Assembly: GCA_017404795.1 (NCBI GenBank)
Contig: JAFRBR010000024.1
Coordinates: 1 to 64,000, forward strand
Length of the DNA: 64,000 nucleotides
Origin: Candidatus Saccharimonadota bacterium
GTDB taxonomy: Bacteria; Patescibacteriota; Saccharimonadia; Saccharimonadales; Saccharimonadaceae
Reading direction: 5' to 3'
Below the pieces are notes generated by a model. The model was given only the letters and a program-made list of their open reading frames with translations, ran no database searches and had not been told where the DNA came from. Position numbers and translations under genes: made by a program. Below are positions 2,590 through 46,730 of this stretch, in pieces (position 1 is the stretch's first letter; each line of letters begins with the position of its first letter).

Positions 2590-2842
2590 CATTGACATTG
2601 TTATTCTTTTATTTTCTTCATTGCCATTGTTTTTAGCCCCTACGGCTCCAGTAGGGCTATGAATCCCTAAAAGTTCGAATCTCTTTGCCTGCAAAAGTAT
2701 ACCTCAGAACTCGCAGGGCATCAGAATAGGGTAATCCTTTTTAGGTATAACCTTGATCTTAGCCGTGTATTCGGGGTGGTCAATACACCAGTCCACAACC
2801 ATGCAAAGTCGAGCAACAACGTCTGGTCGCCCCTCACCAAAT
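2590..2842. repeat. Direct repeat copy B flanking the RelA/SpoT-membrane protein module
   Basis: Second copy of the block at 304-625, same orientation, without the tandem array. It begins CATTGACATTG and is closest to copy A over GCAAAAGTATACCTCAG through CAACAACGTCTGGTCGC. It separates the YjbR-like gene from the RelA/SpoT gene, as copy A separates the module from the CDF transporter. This is consistent with insertion or recombination at a duplicated gene tail. Confidence 0.8.
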
Positions 2843-2877
2843 GCAGAATTTCTTGAACCTGTTGTAGGACGGTGTTT
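2704..2877 (-). pseudogene. C-terminal gene relic, copy B
   Basis: A minus-strand open frame immediately after the stop of the YjbR-like gene reads HRPTTGSRNSAFGEG, RPDVVARLCMVVDWC and KKDYPILMPCEF, then TGA. It is out of frame with the gene before it and has no start of its own. Its homology to 485-655 shows it is a duplicated gene end. A shorter trace (NGEERPDAV on the minus strand near 7395-7425) resembles its first residues, so the tail may belong to a family once present several times here. The original function is not recognised. Confidence 0.45.
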
Positions 2878-3270
2878 TTATTTCTTATCGTTGACTAGTA
2901 AATAGCTTTTTTCGATTAATTCGAATATAGTGTTGTTGCTTAATTTTCCGTCTAGTAATATCGAATACCAGTTATTCTTGTTCATGTGATAAGCGGGGAA
3001 GAAGTTTTCGTGAGTAGAAGTAAAATCTAATGCTTCATGACGATCGAAGCGTAGATTTAATACTTCGACATCGCCACCAATGTTTAAACCAAACTGCTTT
3101 GCAGTTATTTGTGTAATTAACGCAAACCATTTTTTATTGCGGTCGTTCCTGAATATACATAATCTCGGGTATTTTTTCCATAGAAACTCCGGCTTAGCAT
3201 TATATGCGTCTATAATATGAGTGATAATGTCTTGTGTTTGTTTTTGCTTGTAGATATCTATACTATTCAT
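2878..3270 (-). CDS. YjbR/MmcQ family protein
   Basis: 130 residues of the MmcQ/YjbR (CyaY-like fold) family. Seen are the charged N-terminal helix, CIFRNDRNKKWFALI in the central sheet, NLRFDRHEALDF, and the family hallmark PAYHMNKNNWYSILLDG followed by a helix ending SYLLV. Family members are small double-wing proteins, sometimes annotated as DNA-binding; no reaction is established. A minus-strand GGTATAAT lies about 10 nt before the start. The unrelated gene tail of repeat copy B begins straight after its stop codon. Confidence 0.8.
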   Translation of the reverse strand: MNSIDIYKQKQTQDIITHIIDAYNAKPEFLWKKYPRLCIFRNDRNKKWFALITQITAKQFGLNIGGDVEVLNLRFDRHEALDFTSTHENFFPAYHMNKNNWYSILLDGKLSNNTIFELIEKSYLLVNDKK

Positions 3271-3401
3271 GTTCGCTACAATTATACCACTGATGTCGTA
3301 TTTTTCTTCCCCACATTAATAAAAGTCAAACTTTGCGTTAAAAATCAAGGTTTATGACGATTTTAAACGTAAAATTTAGGTTGTTGTCGTTAGAATTGCT
3401 T

Positions 3402-3923
3402 TTAATTTAATATTGCAATGCCGCAGTTGAGGTAGGTGGCGAAAGTACACCATATTATATATGGTAAAAGCATCCAGAAAGCAGGGCGGGAGATTTTGTA
3501 GGCTTTGGCCATGAGAACGATAATCAGTACCCACATAACTAAGAGCCAGACGAAGGCGGGCCAATGCCAGCCGAGACTAAAGAAGAGTGGCGTCCAGATA
3601 AAGTTGAAAACTAGTTGAACGGCGTAGATAATCAGAGCGGTTTTGCTGGCGGATTTGTCGGCGGCTTTTCTGGAATCATGACCTTTTTTCCAAATGAAGT
3701 AGCTAGCAAGCCCCATTAGAATATAAAGAATCGTCCAAGCAACAGGGAAGAGCCATGCGGGTGGAGCGAGTGGCGGTTGGTTGAAGCTACCGAATTTGGC
3801 CATGGCGTCACGCGTGAAAAGCGAGATGATAAATCCGCCGCAAAGAGGCACGGCGATAGCGAGAGTGATGCGCCAGATTTTGCCCCAGGTTGATAATTTT
3901 TGATTTTTCTTTTTGTTTGGCAT
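3402..3923 (-). CDS. tspO: TspO/MBR family membrane protein
   Basis: 173 residues with five hydrophobic helices in the TspO/peripheral benzodiazepine receptor pattern. Diagnostic stretches are QPPLAPPAWLFPVAWTILY (first loop and helix 2), YAVQLVFNFIWTPLFF (helix 3), and LLPYIIWCTFATYLN (helix 5 with the tryptophan that helps form the tetrapyrrole pocket). TspO binds porphyrins and other hydrophobic ligands in the cytoplasmic membrane; its reaction is debated. It is a single gene with a weak AGGAA ribosome site. A TACAAT box lies about 30 nt upstream on the minus strand. Confidence 0.9.
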   Translation of the reverse strand: MPNKKKNQKLSTWGKIWRITLAIAVPLCGGFIISLFTRDAMAKFGSFNQPPLAPPAWLFPVAWTILYILMGLASYFIWKKGHDSRKAADKSASKTALIIYAVQLVFNFIWTPLFFSLGWHWPAFVWLLVMWVLIIVLMAKAYKISRPAFWMLLPYIIWCTFATYLNCGIAILN

Positions 3924-40695: not shown

Positions 40696-40758
40696 GGACC
40701 CGTCGCTCGTTAAAAAATCTGAAACTGACGTTTCATATTTTTTCCCTCGCTTGGGTCC
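40696..40758. repeat. Nested hairpin E7 in the tRNA-Arg leader (tentative family member)
   Basis: GGACCC (40696-40701) pairs with GGGTCC (40753-40758), the tRNA's own acceptor strand, and inside it AAAAAAT-CT-GAAAC-TGAC-GTTTC-ATATTTTTT forms a long stem. The right side reads CCCTCGC before the arm. It separates the tRNA from a TATAAT at about 40649; elsewhere in the window this box is 7 nt from the tRNA. The conserved junction motifs are weaker than in the others. Confidence 0.45.
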
Positions 40759-40827
40759 GTCGTTCAACGGATAGGACATATCCCCTCTAAGGATACAATG
40801 CTGGTTCGATTCCAGCCGGGCCTACCA
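40753..40827 (+). tRNA. tRNA-Arg(TCT), with an unusual anticodon loop
   Basis: 75 nt. Acceptor GGGTCCG/CGGGCCT with G1-U72 and one internal G-U, then A73 and encoded CCA. D stem GTTC/GGAC, anticodon stem TATCC/GGATA, loop CCTCTAA so that position 33 is C where U is nearly universal, T arm GCTGG-TTCGATT-CCAGC. The anticodon TCT reads AGA/AGG. A hairpin element sits in its leader. Confidence 0.85.
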
Positions 40828-40871: not shown

Positions 40872-40960
40872 ATTTTGACTAAATGGGGGTTGCGGAAATT
40901 AGCATGAGTGGTATAATGGGAGCATAGTAAGGTCGTTCATAACTTGTGCAAAGGAAAAAT

Positions 40961-43882
40961 ATGCCCCTAATAGATAAAAAGACAATCAAACTCAATAATA
41001 AAATAATTGCCGTGATGGCGATGGCGCTACTAGGCTTAAGTTTTATTGCCAGCTACCAAGACACTTACGCCACCGAAGCTATGACCCTCTCTATTTCTGG
41101 TGATACTCTAGCTCTTAATCTAGCACCTAATGACAGTGCTGGGACCTTTGGTAAGAGTGATTTAAACATCAGTGTAGCTATGGCAGTGACGGGTGGTTAT
41201 AACCTTACGATCACTGGTAATAATAGCACTGGTAATTTAACTGGTGCTGATGATAGCTCTCATATCATCTCTTCTATTTCTGGTACAGTATCTGAATCAG
41301 ACTTCTCTAACTCTGCTAATACTAGCTATAATAACAAATGGGGCTACAAGATAGCTAAAAACTCTGCTACTAATAATAACTATGTCGCAGCCCCCACTAC
41401 TGCTACTACGACCCTAGATACAGTCTCTAGCTTTAGTGGTACTAATAACTATACCCTCACCCTAGGTGCCAGAGCTAATATCAGTACTCCTATAGATAGC
41501 TATCAGGCTACCTTTGTTATAGCTGCAGTCTCTACCATTACCTGTAATAGCTCTGCTACTACCATTAGTACAGCTATTTGTATGCAAGACATCAATGACA
41601 GTGTAATTAACTCCATGACCACAGGCACCCAATACCAACTAATGGATAATCGTGATAACAAACTCTACTATATCGCCAAAATGCAAGATGGTAGAGTCTG
41701 GATGACTCAGAACTTAGACTTAGACCTAGAGACCACGCCAAACAAAGTAGCTGCTCTTACCCATGCTAATACTGACCTAGGTTGGACTACTAATGATACT
41801 AGTGCTACTTGGACACCAAGTGCTGCTACAGTTACCACCGTAGCTGATTGGGGCACTAATACCAATACTACTCCAGTCTCCTATAATCCAGGAGATATTT
41901 ATTACTATTACGATAAAACTAGCGGTACTAGTGGCACTACTACGACTTATAGTGGAAACACTGCTTCTGCAGATTGTAATGCCGCCCACACAGACGGTAC
42001 TTGTGATCATTATCATGTAGGTAACTATTACAACTGGTCTGCAGCTGTGGCCTCAAATGATACCAGCTCCATTACCACTCAATATGCTACTGCGAATGAT
42101 TCCATCTGCCCGGCAGGTTGGAGACTCCCTACAGGTAGAACCAGCACTACCAGCACTAATCCTGGCTATTACAGCGAAATTAACTATACTTGGGTAGCCG
42201 AGGGTCTAGGCAGGGATTATGTCACTGGCACTAGCTCCGCCGTCTATCTTCCAGACAGCGCCAATGGCTGGAAGAACATCAGAAGTAGTAATATGTACAT
42301 GGTAGCAGCTGGTTACAAAAATGGTACTAATGCTCCTGCTAGCACCACTACTTATGGTTATTTCTGGACCAATACCAACTATTCCTCTACCAGCTATGCC
42401 TATGCACCTTACTTCTATAGTTCTGGTCTTTATCCTGCATACTATAACAGTACTAGTACATCTAGAGGCCGAGGCATGTCTGTCCGCTGTGTTGCTAGAC
42501 AGTCTAACACCGGCTCTACAGTCGTGACCTTTGACAAGAACGCTAGTGATGCTACTGGCACTACGGGTACCAATAACACTCAGACCATCTCTGCTAATAC
42601 TTGGGCAGCTCTAACTACTAACGGCTTTACCCGCTCTGGCTATGCCTTTAACAGCTGGAATACTGAGCCAGATGGTAGCGGCACAACTTATGCTAATACT
42701 GCTCAGTACTACGCTAAAGTTGGCACAGAAACTAACAATGTTACCCTCTACGCCATTTGGGATAAGATATACACCGTCACCTTTGCCATAGGTAATGGTG
42801 CTACTAGTATCGCCTTTGGTAATACTACTGATGGTATGCAAACCTATACCAACGGCCAAACCGCCCAGGCTATAGAAGGAAAAGCCTACACTATCGGTGG
42901 CAACTTCCCAATCAAATACGGCTTTAATACTTGGACTACTACGGCTAATGGTACTTTGGGGGACAGCACCGCCGCCTCCACCACCTACACCGTGACAGGA
43001 GACACCACTCTCACCCTTACTGGTCAGGAAGCGACTACTAGTATTACTAGTATCTCAGCTTCCGGTACCACACCAGACAGTACTTGTAAGAACACTACCC
43101 CAGTTAGAAACGTGCAACTAGTTTATGATCCAAGAGACAATGAAGCCTACTGGGTAGGAGAGCTCTGTGATGGCAAGGTCTGGATGCTAGACAACCTCAG
43201 ACTAGACCTCTCTAACTCCACCACGCTTAGCGGACTTAGCAGTTCTAATACTAACGCTACAGATACGCAATTAAATTACTTAAGAAATGGTGGTGGTACC
43301 ACTACTGACCAATACCCTACGGCTGGACTAGTGAGCTCTTCTTGGAGCAACTATTATAGCGTCCCATATGTAAAGACCACTTATAAAGATAATATCGCTC
43401 CCGTCACTTACGGTGTAGGCTCTGGTAAAGTAGGCGTCTATTATAACTATTGCGCCGCTAGTGCTGGTACCTACTGCTGGGGTAATAATGGCAGCTCTAC
43501 TGGCAGCCCAACAACTGACCCTAACACCAGCTCCTACCGTGATATAGATGACGATATCTGCCCAGCTGGCTGGCACCTACCTTCTGGCAATACTAATAGT
43601 GGCACTACTAGAATTACCGATTATGGTACTCTTTATACTGCTTATAGTGGTGCCACTATCGGCCAAGGAGTAGCCATGCGTAACGCTCTGTCTACGCCTC
43701 TCTCTGGCTACTTTTACGGTTCGCAGTACGGTCTCGGTACGTACGGCTGGTTCTGGTCCTCTACTTGGAACAATACGTACAGTATGTACGCCCTCTACGC
43801 CTACTCTGCAGGTGCGAATCCGTATAATAACTACAATCGCTACGGCGGCTACTCTATTCGATGCGTCCTAGGGTCGTCTTAA
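40961..43882 (+). CDS. DGR target: secreted protein with two lectin-like domains, variable C-terminus
   Basis: 973 residues from ATG 40961, after AAAGGAAAAAT. Signal sequence/anchor at about 12-36, a Thr/Ser/Asn-rich adhesion-like region, then domain 1 (about 215-515: NRDNKLYYIAKMQDGRVWMTQNL, ICPAGWRLPTG, MSVRCV). Next comes an InlB/Flg_new-type repeat (about 525-600, ending VTLYAIWDK) and domain 2 (about 700-973: PRDNEAYWVGELCDGKVWML, ICPAGWHLPSG, SIRCVLGSS). The two domains resemble Fib_succ_major/FGE C-type lectin folds, the usual DGR display scaffold. Residues 909-973 are the variable repeat. TATAAT lies about 45 nt upstream. The DNA is C-rich, unlike neighbouring plus-strand genes. Expected at the cell surface, binding hosts or other ligands. 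Confidence 0.92.
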   Translation: MPLIDKKTIKLNNKIIAVMAMALLGLSFIASYQDTYATEAMTLSISGDTLALNLAPNDSAGTFGKSDLNISVAMAVTGGYNLTITGNNSTGNLTGADDSSHIISSISGTVSESDFSNSANTSYNNKWGYKIAKNSATNNNYVAAPTTATTTLDTVSSFSGTNNYTLTLGARANISTPIDSYQATFVIAAVSTITCNSSATTISTAICMQDINDSVINSMTTGTQYQLMDNRDNKLYYIAKMQDGRVWMTQNLDLDLETTPNKVAALTHANTDLGWTTNDTSATWTPSAATVTTVADWGTNTNTTPVSYNPGDIYYYYDKTSGTSGTTTTYSGNTASADCNAAHTDGTCDHYHVGNYYNWSAAVASNDTSSITTQYATANDSICPAGWRLPTGRTSTTSTNPGYYSEINYTWVAEGLGRDYVTGTSSAVYLPDSANGWKNIRSSNMYMVAAGYKNGTNAPASTTTYGYFWTNTNYSSTSYAYAPYFYSSGLYPAYYNSTSTSRGRGMSVRCVARQSNTGSTVVTFDKNASDATGTTGTNNTQTISANTWAALTTNGFTRSGYAFNSWNTEPDGSGTTYANTAQYYAKVGTETNNVTLYAIWDKIYTVTFAIGNGATSIAFGNTTDGMQTYTNGQTAQAIEGKAYTIGGNFPIKYGFNTWTTTANGTLGDSTAASTTYTVTGDTTLTLTGQEATTSITSISASGTTPDSTCKNTTPVRNVQLVYDPRDNEAYWVGELCDGKVWMLDNLRLDLSNSTTLSGLSSSNTNATDTQLNYLRNGGGTTTDQYPTAGLVSSSWSNYYSVPYVKTTYKDNIAPVTYGVGSGKVGVYYNYCAASAGTYCWGNNGSSTGSPTTDPNTSSYRDIDDDICPAGWHLPSGNTNSGTTRITDYGTLYTAYSGATIGQGVAMRNALSTPLSGYFYGSQYGLGTYGWFWSSTWNNTYSMYALYAYSAGANPYNNYNRYGGYSIRCVLGSS

Positions 43883-43921
43883 GGCGGTTAGGGTTATTCC
43901 TCTTTTCTGGGGTTCTCCCCG
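43685..43921 (+). repeat. DGR variable repeat (VR)
   Basis: 237 bp matching the reverse complement of 46181-46417 without gaps. It differs at 20 positions, and at each the template has A (mostly A to T, giving AAC to TAC). Nineteen fall in the last 65 codons of the target gene and one just after its stop. Fifteen of 21 template AAY codons are changed; eleven became Tyr, the others Gly, Ser, Ala. The invariant end TTCGATGCGTCCTAGGG across the stop is the likely homing-initiation (IMH) segment. Confidence 0.97.
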
Positions 43922-43942
43922 CTCTTTGAGAAAACAGAAAAC

Positions 43943-43972
43943 GCGCTTCCGAGCCTTAAGCGAAGGAAGCGC
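43943..43972. other. Hairpin downstream of VR
   Basis: GCGCTTCC (43943-43950) and GGAAGCGC (43965-43972) pair perfectly around a 14 nt loop, 21 bp after the VR. In the Bordetella phage DGR a GC-rich hairpin shortly after VR aids retrohoming; here the loop is longer. It may also end target transcription. A smaller GGGG-TTCT-CCCC hairpin closes the VR itself. Confidence 0.55.
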
Positions 43973-44012
43973 TGGAAGAATAAAGCCAGAATACAGAAAG
44001 ATGTAAGAAGTA

Positions 44013-44933
44013 ATGAGTAGAACTAAAAAACCTAGTAATCAAGAGCCAGCAACAGAGCTGATGAAAGCGGTGGCTACGAAGGCCGTGAATTTGAATAATC
44101 TGGAAAAAGTTTTTTCACCAAAGGATGTGGAAGAAATCTTAGCTAAACGAGAGGCGGGAGGAACGTTGGAGTCCGCGGAGCGCAAAGCGCTCCGCGAGAA
44201 ATATCGTAAAATTAAACGCCAAGTGAAAGAAATGGAGAGGGGTAATAAGGGGAAGATAATTGTAATGCCAGCAATTACCAACCCCGATTTTTATAAAGTG
44301 TTTGATTTTTCGGCGCTATATTATGTTTATAGATTAGCGAATAGGATGGGACGAAGTGCTAGACTGATGCATGATTCGGACAAGAACTCAAAAATGTTAC
44401 ATTCGGCGAGTATTGTGAAAATTGATAAGTTTTTGGAGCAAATGAAAAGATTAGAGGATTTGACTCCAGAGATGACTGAGGACGGAATATATATTTTTAC
44501 ATTGAAGAAAGAACTGACCGATGAGGAATTGGTGCAACTGAGAACAATTGAGGAAACAAGGCGGACTAGTCTACATAATATTTTGAAACCAAAAAGAATG
44601 GACCCAGCGGTATTTCAAGAAATATTGATGGTGATTCGGATGGTGGGTCCGAGGGTGAAAAAACTAGAAAGACATGAATATTATGCTATAGGTGAGGAAA
44701 TGTTAGTAAATTTGAAAAATTTACTGAGAGTGTATTATGATTATGCGGAAGGAGAATTAAATATGGCACAGGCTAAGAGCCAGATAATGAGGCTAGTTGA
44801 CGATTTATTTGCGGGTTTAACGGTATTATCAGAATTAAGAATATGGGATTTTGGAGCGGCGATAACAATTGGCGAGTCTATTAATGGGGTAAAAAAACTA
44901 ATAGAAAAAGATTTTAAAATTAGAAAGAATTAA
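44013..44933 (+). CDS. Avd-like DGR accessory protein with a long N-terminal extension
   Basis: 306 residues. About 200-302 (FQEILMVIRMVGPRVKKLER, EEMLVNLKNLLRVYYDYA, QIMRLVDDLFAGLTVLSELR, AITIGESINGVKKLI) has the four-helix pattern of Avd, the basic bundle that partners the DGR reverse transcriptase and binds template RNA. Avd is normally about 120-130 residues; the first 195 here, with a highly charged helix (about 35-80) and a middle part (SALYYVYRLANRMGR), are not recognised. It stops 1 nt before the reverse transcriptase, so the two are co-translated. The fold call is by pattern; genomic context makes it strong. Confidence 0.7.
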   Translation: MSRTKKPSNQEPATELMKAVATKAVNLNNLEKVFSPKDVEEILAKREAGGTLESAERKALREKYRKIKRQVKEMERGNKGKIIVMPAITNPDFYKVFDFSALYYVYRLANRMGRSARLMHDSDKNSKMLHSASIVKIDKFLEQMKRLEDLTPEMTEDGIYIFTLKKELTDEELVQLRTIEETRRTSLHNILKPKRMDPAVFQEILMVIRMVGPRVKKLERHEYYAIGEEMLVNLKNLLRVYYDYAEGELNMAQAKSQIMRLVDDLFAGLTVLSELRIWDFGAAITIGESINGVKKLIEKDFKIRKN

Positions 44934-44934
44934 A

Positions 44935-46098
44935 ATGCAAGATTATTTTGGGCTTTTGAAAAATAGTGATGACGAATTAACGCGAGAATGGTTGTTGAAA
45001 GACCCTAAGAATATGCTACTAGCTGAGCTTTTTATTGCGGAACAACAAGCGCGAAAGGGTGGTAAGCGCAAAACTTATGATACACATATGTTTGAAGTAA
45101 ATCTATTTGAAAATTTGATGAGAATAAGAGATGCATTGTGGAATTATGAATATACTCCGAGTAGAGGGACAGCACATATAGTGTTCCGACCGGTAAAAAG
45201 AGAAATATTTGCAGCACCGTATCCAGATAGGATAGTCCAACATTGGGTGATAAACTTGATTAATCCTTGGTGGGAGCCTCGGTTAGCTGATTCTTCGTTT
45301 AGCTGTAGGGTAGGAAGGGGAACGAGATATGGAGTTTTGCGACTGCGGCACCATATATTATCGGCCTCACGGAATATGACGAGACCAGTAGTGGTGGTGC
45401 AAATGGACATAACGGGGTATTTTATGCATATTGACCGCAAAAAGATGTATGAAAGAGTGAGATGGGGCCTGGATCGACAATTTACGGACCATAATGATAA
45501 GAGATATAAAATGTTAAGGCATGCGATACGTGAGATCATATTTGATGATCCGGTCCGAGGAGTAAAAATACAGGGATCCTTAAATGATTGGCGAGGTCTA
45601 CCAGAGGATAAAAGTTTGTTTTGCCAGAAGCCGGGGCAGGGATTAGTAATTGGTAATTTAACTTCACAGGTGTTTTCGAATATTTATTTGGATGCGCTAG
45701 ATAGATTTATCATGCTTATTTTGGGGTATAAATATTATGGGAGGTATGTGGACGATTTTTATATTGTGGTGACTTTAGACCAATTACCACAATTGAAACG
45801 AGATATTAAAGTGATTGAAGCGTTCTTGAATGGGATGGGATTGTCTCTAAATCATAAAAAAACGAGAATAACGCCGGCTCATCAAGGAGTGTCGTTTTTG
45901 GGGATGGTGGTAAAAGGGCATGCGATTTTGCCGGGGAAGCGGATTGTAAATAATTTCAGTGATGCGGCGTATAAATTGGTAGGAGGAGTCGGAGATGTGG
46001 AGTCGATCGTGTCATATTTAGGATTATTATGTCATTGTGATGGGGGCCGGGCGACAAAAAAGATTTTTGATAAAGTTGGGTGGGATTATAATTGGTAA
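44935..46098 (+). CDS. DGR reverse transcriptase
   Basis: 387 residues. Motif A VVVQMDITGYFMHID (Asp about 158), motif B PGQGLVIGNLTSQVFSNIYLD (about 233-252, with the IGxxxSQ form typical of DGR and retron-type enzymes), motif C YGRYVDDFYIVV (YVDD about 271-274), then a thumb region with LNHKKTRITPAHQGVSFLG. No maturase or endonuclease domain, so not a group II intron. It copies template RNA with errors at adenines, and the cDNA replaces VR. It begins 1 nt after the Avd-like gene. The template lies 83 nt beyond its 3' end on the other strand. Confidence 0.95.
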   Translation: MQDYFGLLKNSDDELTREWLLKDPKNMLLAELFIAEQQARKGGKRKTYDTHMFEVNLFENLMRIRDALWNYEYTPSRGTAHIVFRPVKREIFAAPYPDRIVQHWVINLINPWWEPRLADSSFSCRVGRGTRYGVLRLRHHILSASRNMTRPVVVVQMDITGYFMHIDRKKMYERVRWGLDRQFTDHNDKRYKMLRHAIREIIFDDPVRGVKIQGSLNDWRGLPEDKSLFCQKPGQGLVIGNLTSQVFSNIYLDALDRFIMLILGYKYYGRYVDDFYIVVTLDQLPQLKRDIKVIEAFLNGMGLSLNHKKTRITPAHQGVSFLGMVVKGHAILPGKRIVNNFSDAAYKLVGGVGDVESIVSYLGLLCHCDGGRATKKIFDKVGWDYNW

Positions 46099-46180
46099 GT
46101 TGATTTTATTAGTGCATTTGGTCTCGGTAGCCTCTCTGCTACTGCCGAGATTTATTAGGACTTTAACCTTTAGTGAAGAA

Positions 46181-46417
46181 CGGGGAGAACCCCAGAAAAG
46201 AGGAATAACCCTAATCGCCTTAAGACGACCCTAGGACGCATCGAATAGAGTTGCCGTTGTTGCGATTGTTGTTATTATTCGGATTCGCACCTGTAGAGTT
46301 GGCGTTGAGGTTGTACATATTGTTCGTATTGTTCCAAGTAGAGGACCAGAACCAGCCGTTCGTACCGAGATTGTTCTGCGAACCGTTAAAGTTGCCAGAG
46401 AGAGGCGTAGACAGAGC
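46181..46417 (-). ncRNA. DGR template repeat (TR), antisense to the operon
   Basis: 237 bp; its minus-strand sequence equals VR except for 20 adenines. Read in the VR frame it has 21 AAY codons in 65, the maximal-diversity bias of templates, and no stop before the shared TAA. In most described DGRs the template shares strand with the RT and lies next to avd; here it is inverted and downstream of the RT, so it needs its own promoter. GTTATAATTAA on the minus strand near 46705-46715 is a candidate, giving a roughly 290 nt leader. Confidence 0.95.
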
Positions 46418-46730
46418 TGCGCCTGAGAATAATAAGGGTTTGGGTGATTCAGTCCTTTGAAGGATGAGTGTACAACCGCGAACTTATTTTGCAAGTGAGA
46501 CTCACTAAGAAGAATGCTTATTTTTCCACTCTTGCCGTAACGAGGGCGGAAAAGCTTGGACGGACAAAATGATATTTGTGTTGATGTCCGCCTAGAGCTG
46601 AAGACTCTGCTCGTCACAAAGCGCATTCTTTGCTCTTCAGTTATAAAGGTACGGACAAAGCAATAGAGCTTGTAGCTCGTCGTTGCTAAAATCTACGCTG
46701 TCCCATAAGTTAATTATAACGGATTGAGGT
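46418..46730 (-). other. Putative 5' leader of template RNA
   Basis: About 310 bp without a credible gene; the open frames here are template shadows. Several stems are possible, for example AGAATGC with GCATTCT, CCACTC/GAGGGCGG-like pairing, GGACGGAC with GTCCGCC, and CAAAT with ATTTG inside it. A TATAAT lies at its upstream end on the minus strand. Template RNAs need flanking structure for RT/Avd binding, so this may be functional RNA. No known RNA family (6S, SRP, RNase P, tmRNA) was recognised. Confidence 0.35.

Follow-up and report, generated by a model that had tools for sequence, protein, structure and literature searches.

A diversity-generating retroelement of Saccharibacteria with an antisense TR and a putative structured leader RNA

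In the diversity-generating retroelement (DGR) of Bordetella phage BPP-1, the TR is flanked by avd and brt, all on one strand, and the RNA of the 3' spacer recruits bRT-Avd (PMC12875486). The inverted DGRs of Shewanella, Vibrio and Photobacterium (DiGReF group 4) have their RT and TR on opposite strands (PMC3521204), an arrangement that gives template RNA and RT separate transcripts. DGR clade 2 of the CPR was described by Roux et al. 2021 (PMC8144416), and Nanoarchaeota with four DGRs per genome by Paul et al. 2015 (PMC4372165). DGRs in CPR, inverted cassettes and the occurrence of four cassettes in one tiny genome are all already known. To our knowledge, template RNA recognition and priming are known in detail for the BPP-1 DGR only; a lineage with a structured RNA on the 5' side, apparently made as a separate transcript, and with an altered Avd would represent an independent solution for comparison.

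The window analysed here is a stretch of 64,000 nucleotides (assembly GCA_017404795.1, contig JAFRBR010000024.1, forward strand), to which all unlabelled coordinates refer. It belongs to a Saccharibacteria genome of 692 kb in 27 contigs, in agreement with an earlier note on this DNA, which had supposed a very small genome. The genome groups with gut Candidatus Saccharibacteria, many of them ruminant, its relatives including UBA2866 and Ca. Nanosyncoccus alces, and its lineage and size lead us to infer a life on other cells. Our overall reading, which we consider probable and which is built from sequence comparison and structure prediction, is that of a complete DGR of one Saccharibacteria genus and its near kin, whose template would be a free-standing, structured leader-TR RNA.

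The repeat pair, the target and the cassette proteins

The locus is a DGR. The complete element proposed in the earlier note is supported by the RT, the Avd fold, a FISUMP target and an adenine-only signature between TR and VR. The VR (43685-43921, plus strand), comprising the last 65 codons of the target, its stop and the next 39 nt, aligns without a gap over 237 of 237 bases with the reverse complement of 46181-46417, the TR, which lies on the minus strand in antisense, convergent orientation relative to the RT. The alignment check suggested earlier thus upheld both the gap-free match and the restriction of differences to adenines: all 20 mismatches fall at adenines of the template (11 A>T, 8 A>G and 1 A>C) and none at another base, an outcome with P = 5e-14 under random placement (hypergeometric count). 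Nineteen of the changes are indeed in the final 65 codons, the remaining one following the stop at 43887, and 15 of the 21 AAY codons are altered, chiefly from Asn to Tyr, as had been claimed. Among 96 non-redundant relative loci, the rate of change was 0.379 per adenine versus 0.0026 per other base, a 147-fold ratio that is somewhat inflated because loci with more than four non-A changes were removed beforehand.

The GC-rich 3' end of the VR, GGGGTTCTCCCCG (43909-43921, plus strand), is identical in the TR and marks the point where homology stops, making it a candidate IMH-like end. Directly 3' of the VR, and absent 3' of the TR, is an inverted repeat with an 8-bp stem, GCGCTTCC/GGAAGCGC (43943-43972, plus strand). 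Inverted repeats of at least 8 bp follow 27 of 88 VRs and 23 of 88 TRs versus 5% of random stretches, and the feature is not VR-specific across all loci.

The target (40946-43882, plus strand) is a protein of 978 aa when read from a GTG, with an ATG at 40961 as alternative start. Its N-terminus is signal-peptide-like, and FISUMP domains occur at about 41636-42496 and 43442-43867 (TIGR02145, E 5.8e-23); the VR occupies the C-terminus, inside a FISUMP domain with a putative C-type-lectin-like fold. In the N-terminal half, 156 bp (about 41549-41704) are 93% identical to a paralogue on contig C20 (L240, 4712-4867), the adjoining region being about 67% identical, which suggests gene conversion or domain shuffling.

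Between target and RT lies a gene for an accessory protein of 306 aa (44013-44933, plus strand), previously described as Avd-like. Its AlphaFold2 model (mean pLDDT 91) bears out that description and consists of an N-terminal domain followed by a predicted five-helix fold of Avd type (residues about 194-306, nt 44592-44930). Superposed on Bordetella Avd (4dwl_D), residues 198-306 reach Z 15.4 with an rmsd of 1.7 over 106 residues; the same part matches 8ub8_D (Z 15.2) and the S23-family protein 2gsc_C (Z 16.7), with unrelated bundles reaching at most 12. The threshold of sequence model NF033474 was not reached (E 0.068). The N-terminal part (residues 1 to about 165, with a conserved core at about 54-165) gave no clear match in structure and profile comparisons. 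A MutS domain I-like fold (Z about 5.5) was considered for it and dropped, as comparison with the E. coli MutS profile was unsupportive (probability 3.6), and a GreA-like identity of the accessory protein was rejected with matches below the cut-off.

Every one of the 110 antisense-TR records that gave an Avd hit has this extra domain, although some of these records repeat the same locus; one further record has the N-terminal part only. A search across 380 genomes of the phylum found it restricted to the genus of the window, and it also scores in three family-level loci (L132, L135, L138). The canonical cassettes of other genera of the family (L136, L141) encode short Avds of 133-143 aa that lack it. 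The long Avd thus goes with the structured leader and antisense TR, and the short Avd with canonical cassettes. Some long Avds carry a helix-turn-helix domain (HTH_3) at the extreme N-terminus (L165 of Ca. Nanosyncoccus alces, 2750-3424, E 1.1e-8, and four others).

The RT (387 aa, 44935-46098, plus strand; RVT_1 E 8.9e-14) is of DGR type and contains the two motifs reported earlier, YVDD and IGxxxSQ, the latter as IGNLTSQ. As for its kinship, also put forward for checking, no solved structure matches it better than the RT of the Bordetella DGR (8ub7_A, E 1.7e-23), and group II RTs fall far behind. Several records labelled Bacteroidales, Prevotella or Deltaproteobacteria (L214, L220, L222, L224, L225) contain related RTs of 37-43% identity, possibly through exchange among gut bacteria or as misbinned contigs.

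The leader, the tail and a putative helix around the TR

In relatives, the usual order is target-avd-RT-(antisense TR), with the antisense TR after the RT in 88 distinct RT rows; a minority of them have a VR beyond the TR as well. The order in L136 and L141 is target-avd-TR-RT. The 3' flank of the TR, up to the RT stop, measures about 60-100 nt in the close group, and in the window this interval holds a hairpin (46123-46149) that, by sequence and fold, is a candidate terminator of the RT operon. The hairpin also falls within the tail of the antisense RNA, and a consensus scan did not list it. Some features shared by antisense loci may come from common descent.

Upstream of the TR and on its strand is a putative structured leader (46418-46704, minus strand) with a 5' stem starting at 46704, preceded by a TATAAT box (46713-46718, minus strand) that is a candidate -10 element of a leader-TR RNA. 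TATAAT is found in 53 of 89 leaders on the TR strand and in 25 of 89 on the opposite strand; a promoter scan of the minus strand at the locus gave no full sigma-70 match. The whole leader-TR RNA folds with a z of -3.8 (20 shuffles). When the locus and ten relatives were searched against Rfam, only tRNAs reached the gathering score and the leader was unmatched. On the minus strand, the leader would contain, from its 5' side, ACCUUUA (46644-46650), the 5' strand of a helix P1 (46632-46638), P2 (46623-46630 with 46510-46517) and P3 (46604-46622). The RNA tail (46166-46181) combines the putative P1 3' strand, GUUCUUC (46175-46181), with UAAAGGU (46166-46172), both complementary to the leader.

Comparative data support these helices. 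In an alignment of one subclade, made of the cassette on our contig C4 and five species, a structure written from one sequence pairs 98.4% of cells, with 10 of 21 pairs altered on both sides, while slid controls pair 28-52%; RNAalifold recovered the main helices from the same alignment and added 5' helices. In the subclade of the window (group A), P2 is paired in 60 of 60 cells and P1 in 69 of 70, against shuffled maxima of 56 and 66, the registers having been selected by eye, which biases these counts towards pairing. An automatic fold of the group A alignment recovered P3 and missed P2 because the variable P4 region misaligns.

The proposed pairing between tail and leader was evaluated in 89 loci by scoring the best contiguous helix that the 28 nt surrounding the TR 3' end can form with as much as 350 nt of leader. 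Own pairs averaged 20.8 versus 17.4 for permuted pairs (z 12.8; none of 20,000 permutations as high), with the own leader read backwards scoring 18.1. Some loci are close relatives, which makes cross pairs more alike but also leaves the 89 not fully independent. This was the second statistic tried, the first, gapped duplex energies of leader against tail, being scarcely discriminating (own -32.4 versus -30.2). The P1 of the window itself, at 7-8 bp, is unexceptional in score (rank 39 of 89). We read these data as pointing to a long-range helix, P1, in which the tail 3' of the TR would pair back to the leader and so bracket the TR. By eye, the tails of group B (L068, L082, L091, L108, L110, L173) also include a near-complement of the first hairpin of the leader, and L068 offers an example of a second possible long-range pairing, between UAGCGAGAAUCGCU and AGCGAUUCCGCUA.

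The same complementarity could be a DNA inverted repeat, such as a scar of TR inversion or a recombination or cruciform site, instead of an RNA helix. Inverted repeats can drive inversion, and the TR unit is flipped in some relatives. In L150, L151 and L153, leader and TR are on the RT strand with the leader still first, and their RTs are nested within the antisense clade of the RT tree; leader and TR have flipped as a block. However, the inverted copy lies inside the leader, and the flipped unit includes the 5' part of the leader and the promoter-like box. Moreover, the adjoining P2-P4 covary as RNA hairpins with G-U pairs retained, and P1 changes in sequence between species while its complementarity is maintained. 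We therefore regard a DNA repeat as very improbable.

The flipped loci also bear on another view, namely that the element is an ordinary DGR with an inverted TR and that the leader has no role in reverse transcription but regulates the RT operon separately, for instance as an antisense RNA or a terminator. Inverted cassettes have precedent (PMC3521204; PMC6642488), and the RNA overlaps the end of the RT-operon transcript, a possible site for a regulator or terminator. Against this, the leader remains 5' of the TR in L150, L151 and L153, whose unit is on the RT strand and so rules out an antisense relation to the RT; it pairs with sequence after the TR, which a separate regulator would not need; and it accompanies the enlarged Avd. 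This explanation is in our judgement unlikely.

We favour instead an RNA-scaffold mechanism, which we treat as a supported hypothesis. Leader and TR would have a promoter of their own, and transcription from it, running towards the RT operon, would yield a free-standing RNA roughly 550-600 nt long. Folding of the leader would form P2, P3 and P4, and P1 would loop out the TR and bring its 3' end (CCCCG) next to the helix. RT and long Avd would bind this leader-TR scaffold, probably via the extra N-terminal domain of Avd, and cDNA synthesis would begin near the P1 junction. Adenines would be miscopied and the cDNA would replace the VR of the local target, as well as, for two sister cassettes, VRs of target genes elsewhere. 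The likely gain is that a secreted adhesin can rapidly alter its binding face, in a bacterium dependent on other microbes. Whether these features amount to a distinct class of DGR RNA, in which a separate antisense gene encodes a template that has a 5' scaffold and a TR-closing helix, has co-evolved with the Avd N-domain, replaces the 3' spacer of BPP-1 and works in either orientation relative to the RT, we judge to be an even question. A self-contained template RNA of this kind could serve targeted mutagenesis.

A covariance model built from six leaders (R1) matched four of 99 scanned genomes of the genus, including G676, which was absent from the training set and has its leader immediately 5' of an antisense TR, beside an RT, and a VR with 28 A changes and one other. 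R1 did not find group A leaders, and a single model for all leaders was not reached, because the leaders diverge so fast.

Sister cassettes, genome context and signs of activity

The genome contains four RT+Avd cassettes, each with its own antisense TR and a local VR. Their repeats differ by 20, 20, 33 and 17 adenine changes, 90 of 90 differences inside the repeats being at adenines, and the few non-adenine differences are all in the final bases past the repeat. In the RT tree the four RTs sit in four separate, supported lineages that are common to other species, so the cassettes appear to be old paralogues that have been maintained. In trans, at contig ends, there are at least four further VRs: the TR of C23 matches VRs in C5 (18 A changes, 1 other), C9 (22 A, 6 other) and C24 (18 A, 5 other), and the TR of C4 matches one in C11 (31 A, 9 other). 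Local and trans copies together give at least eight secreted-type, lectin-like genes with a VR. For a host-dependent bacterium with 692 kb of DNA, four cassettes and eight or more variable genes of secreted type point to a heavy investment in altering binding.

The four C23-type VRs differ from their template at 38 of 59 adenines in at least one copy, and 13 sites have two or more different replacement bases; the C23 template has therefore been written more than once. This bears on the suggestion that the locus is an inactive relic, whose VR was written long ago by a system now defunct. We have one assembly, and its 20 changes could be old, but all genes are open, there is no non-adenine change in 237 bp, and one sister TR has written different VRs in the same genome. 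In UBA2866, the closest relative, a gap of 224 N begins inside the VR and is the sole gap in 19 kb; it may be a masked stretch. A defunct system thus seems quite improbable, and these comparisons are indirect signs that the DGR may still be active.

In 19 of 71 loci the record breaks off no more than about 250 bp upstream of the VR, a further indirect sign that paralogous targets could also produce. In our genome, nine contigs end inside FISUMP genes (C1, C3, C4, C5, C9, C11, C12, C23 and C24; L235-L239, L243, L067-L069). The assembly therefore breaks at DGR targets and their paralogues, and short-read assemblies probably underestimate the number of targets.

Many DGRs are phage-borne (PMC8144416), and with a tRNA gene directly upstream of the cassette (40753-40827) one may ask whether a prophage or other mobile element carries it. 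The neighbours, however, are by sequence of housekeeping type (FtsA-like, CTP synthase-like and aspartyl-tRNA synthetase-like), the long Avd was unmatched in 50,697 phage records, where RTs reached at most about 35% identity, and the TR/VR pattern was not found in viral contigs. Adjacency to a tRNA gene is not general, being seen in 4 of 71 loci with no insertion pattern. A mobile carrier is accordingly extremely improbable, and we take the cassette to be a resident bacterial system. As a separate observation, MutS domain I (PF01624) was detected in 0 of 41 genomes of the class of the window versus 11 of 14 controls, and the DGR carriers of this class seem to be without this mismatch-repair protein.

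Comparison with known systems

Like the inverted DGRs of DiGReF group 4, the present locus has RT and TR on opposed strands. In that group, however, TR, VR and target share a strand, the RT alone is inverted and no leader RNA was reported, whereas here target, avd and RT share a strand and the TR alone is inverted. The DGRs of CPR clade 2 and Nanoarchaeota resemble ours in belonging to host-dependent lineages with small genomes, and both four cassettes and VR-only loci have precedent there (PMC8144416, PMC4372165); the texts of these two papers do not mention a structured leader or an enlarged Avd. In the literature covered, which does not extend to Paul 2017, Wu 2018 and Handa 2025, neither a structured 5' leader with a TR-bracketing helix nor an extended Avd is described. 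Priority for antisense TRs and RNA structure is accordingly provisional.

Retron RNAs have complementary ends. The likeness to our element is in layout only, with a structured RNA that would template cDNA and pairing across the template. In contrast to retrons, a VR receives the product, an Avd is present and the best solved match of the RT is a DGR RT; a retron identity was ruled out by the VR-TR match and by retron RT models scoring far under their cut-off (St85 38 versus 235 bits).

The DGR of BPP-1 (mtd-avd-TR-brt) shares with ours a related RT, the Avd fold, an adenine-specific relation of TR and VR, and a VR that ends the gene of a target of putative lectin type. A structured 3' spacer of BPP-1 type, running from TR to RT on the RT strand, is not what the locus has, though its tail may also be structured. 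Unlike in BPP-1, the TR of the Saccharibacteria element is antisense and follows the RT, the putative structured RNA lies 5' of the TR, the TR is enclosed by a predicted helix, and the Avd carries an additional domain at its N-terminus.
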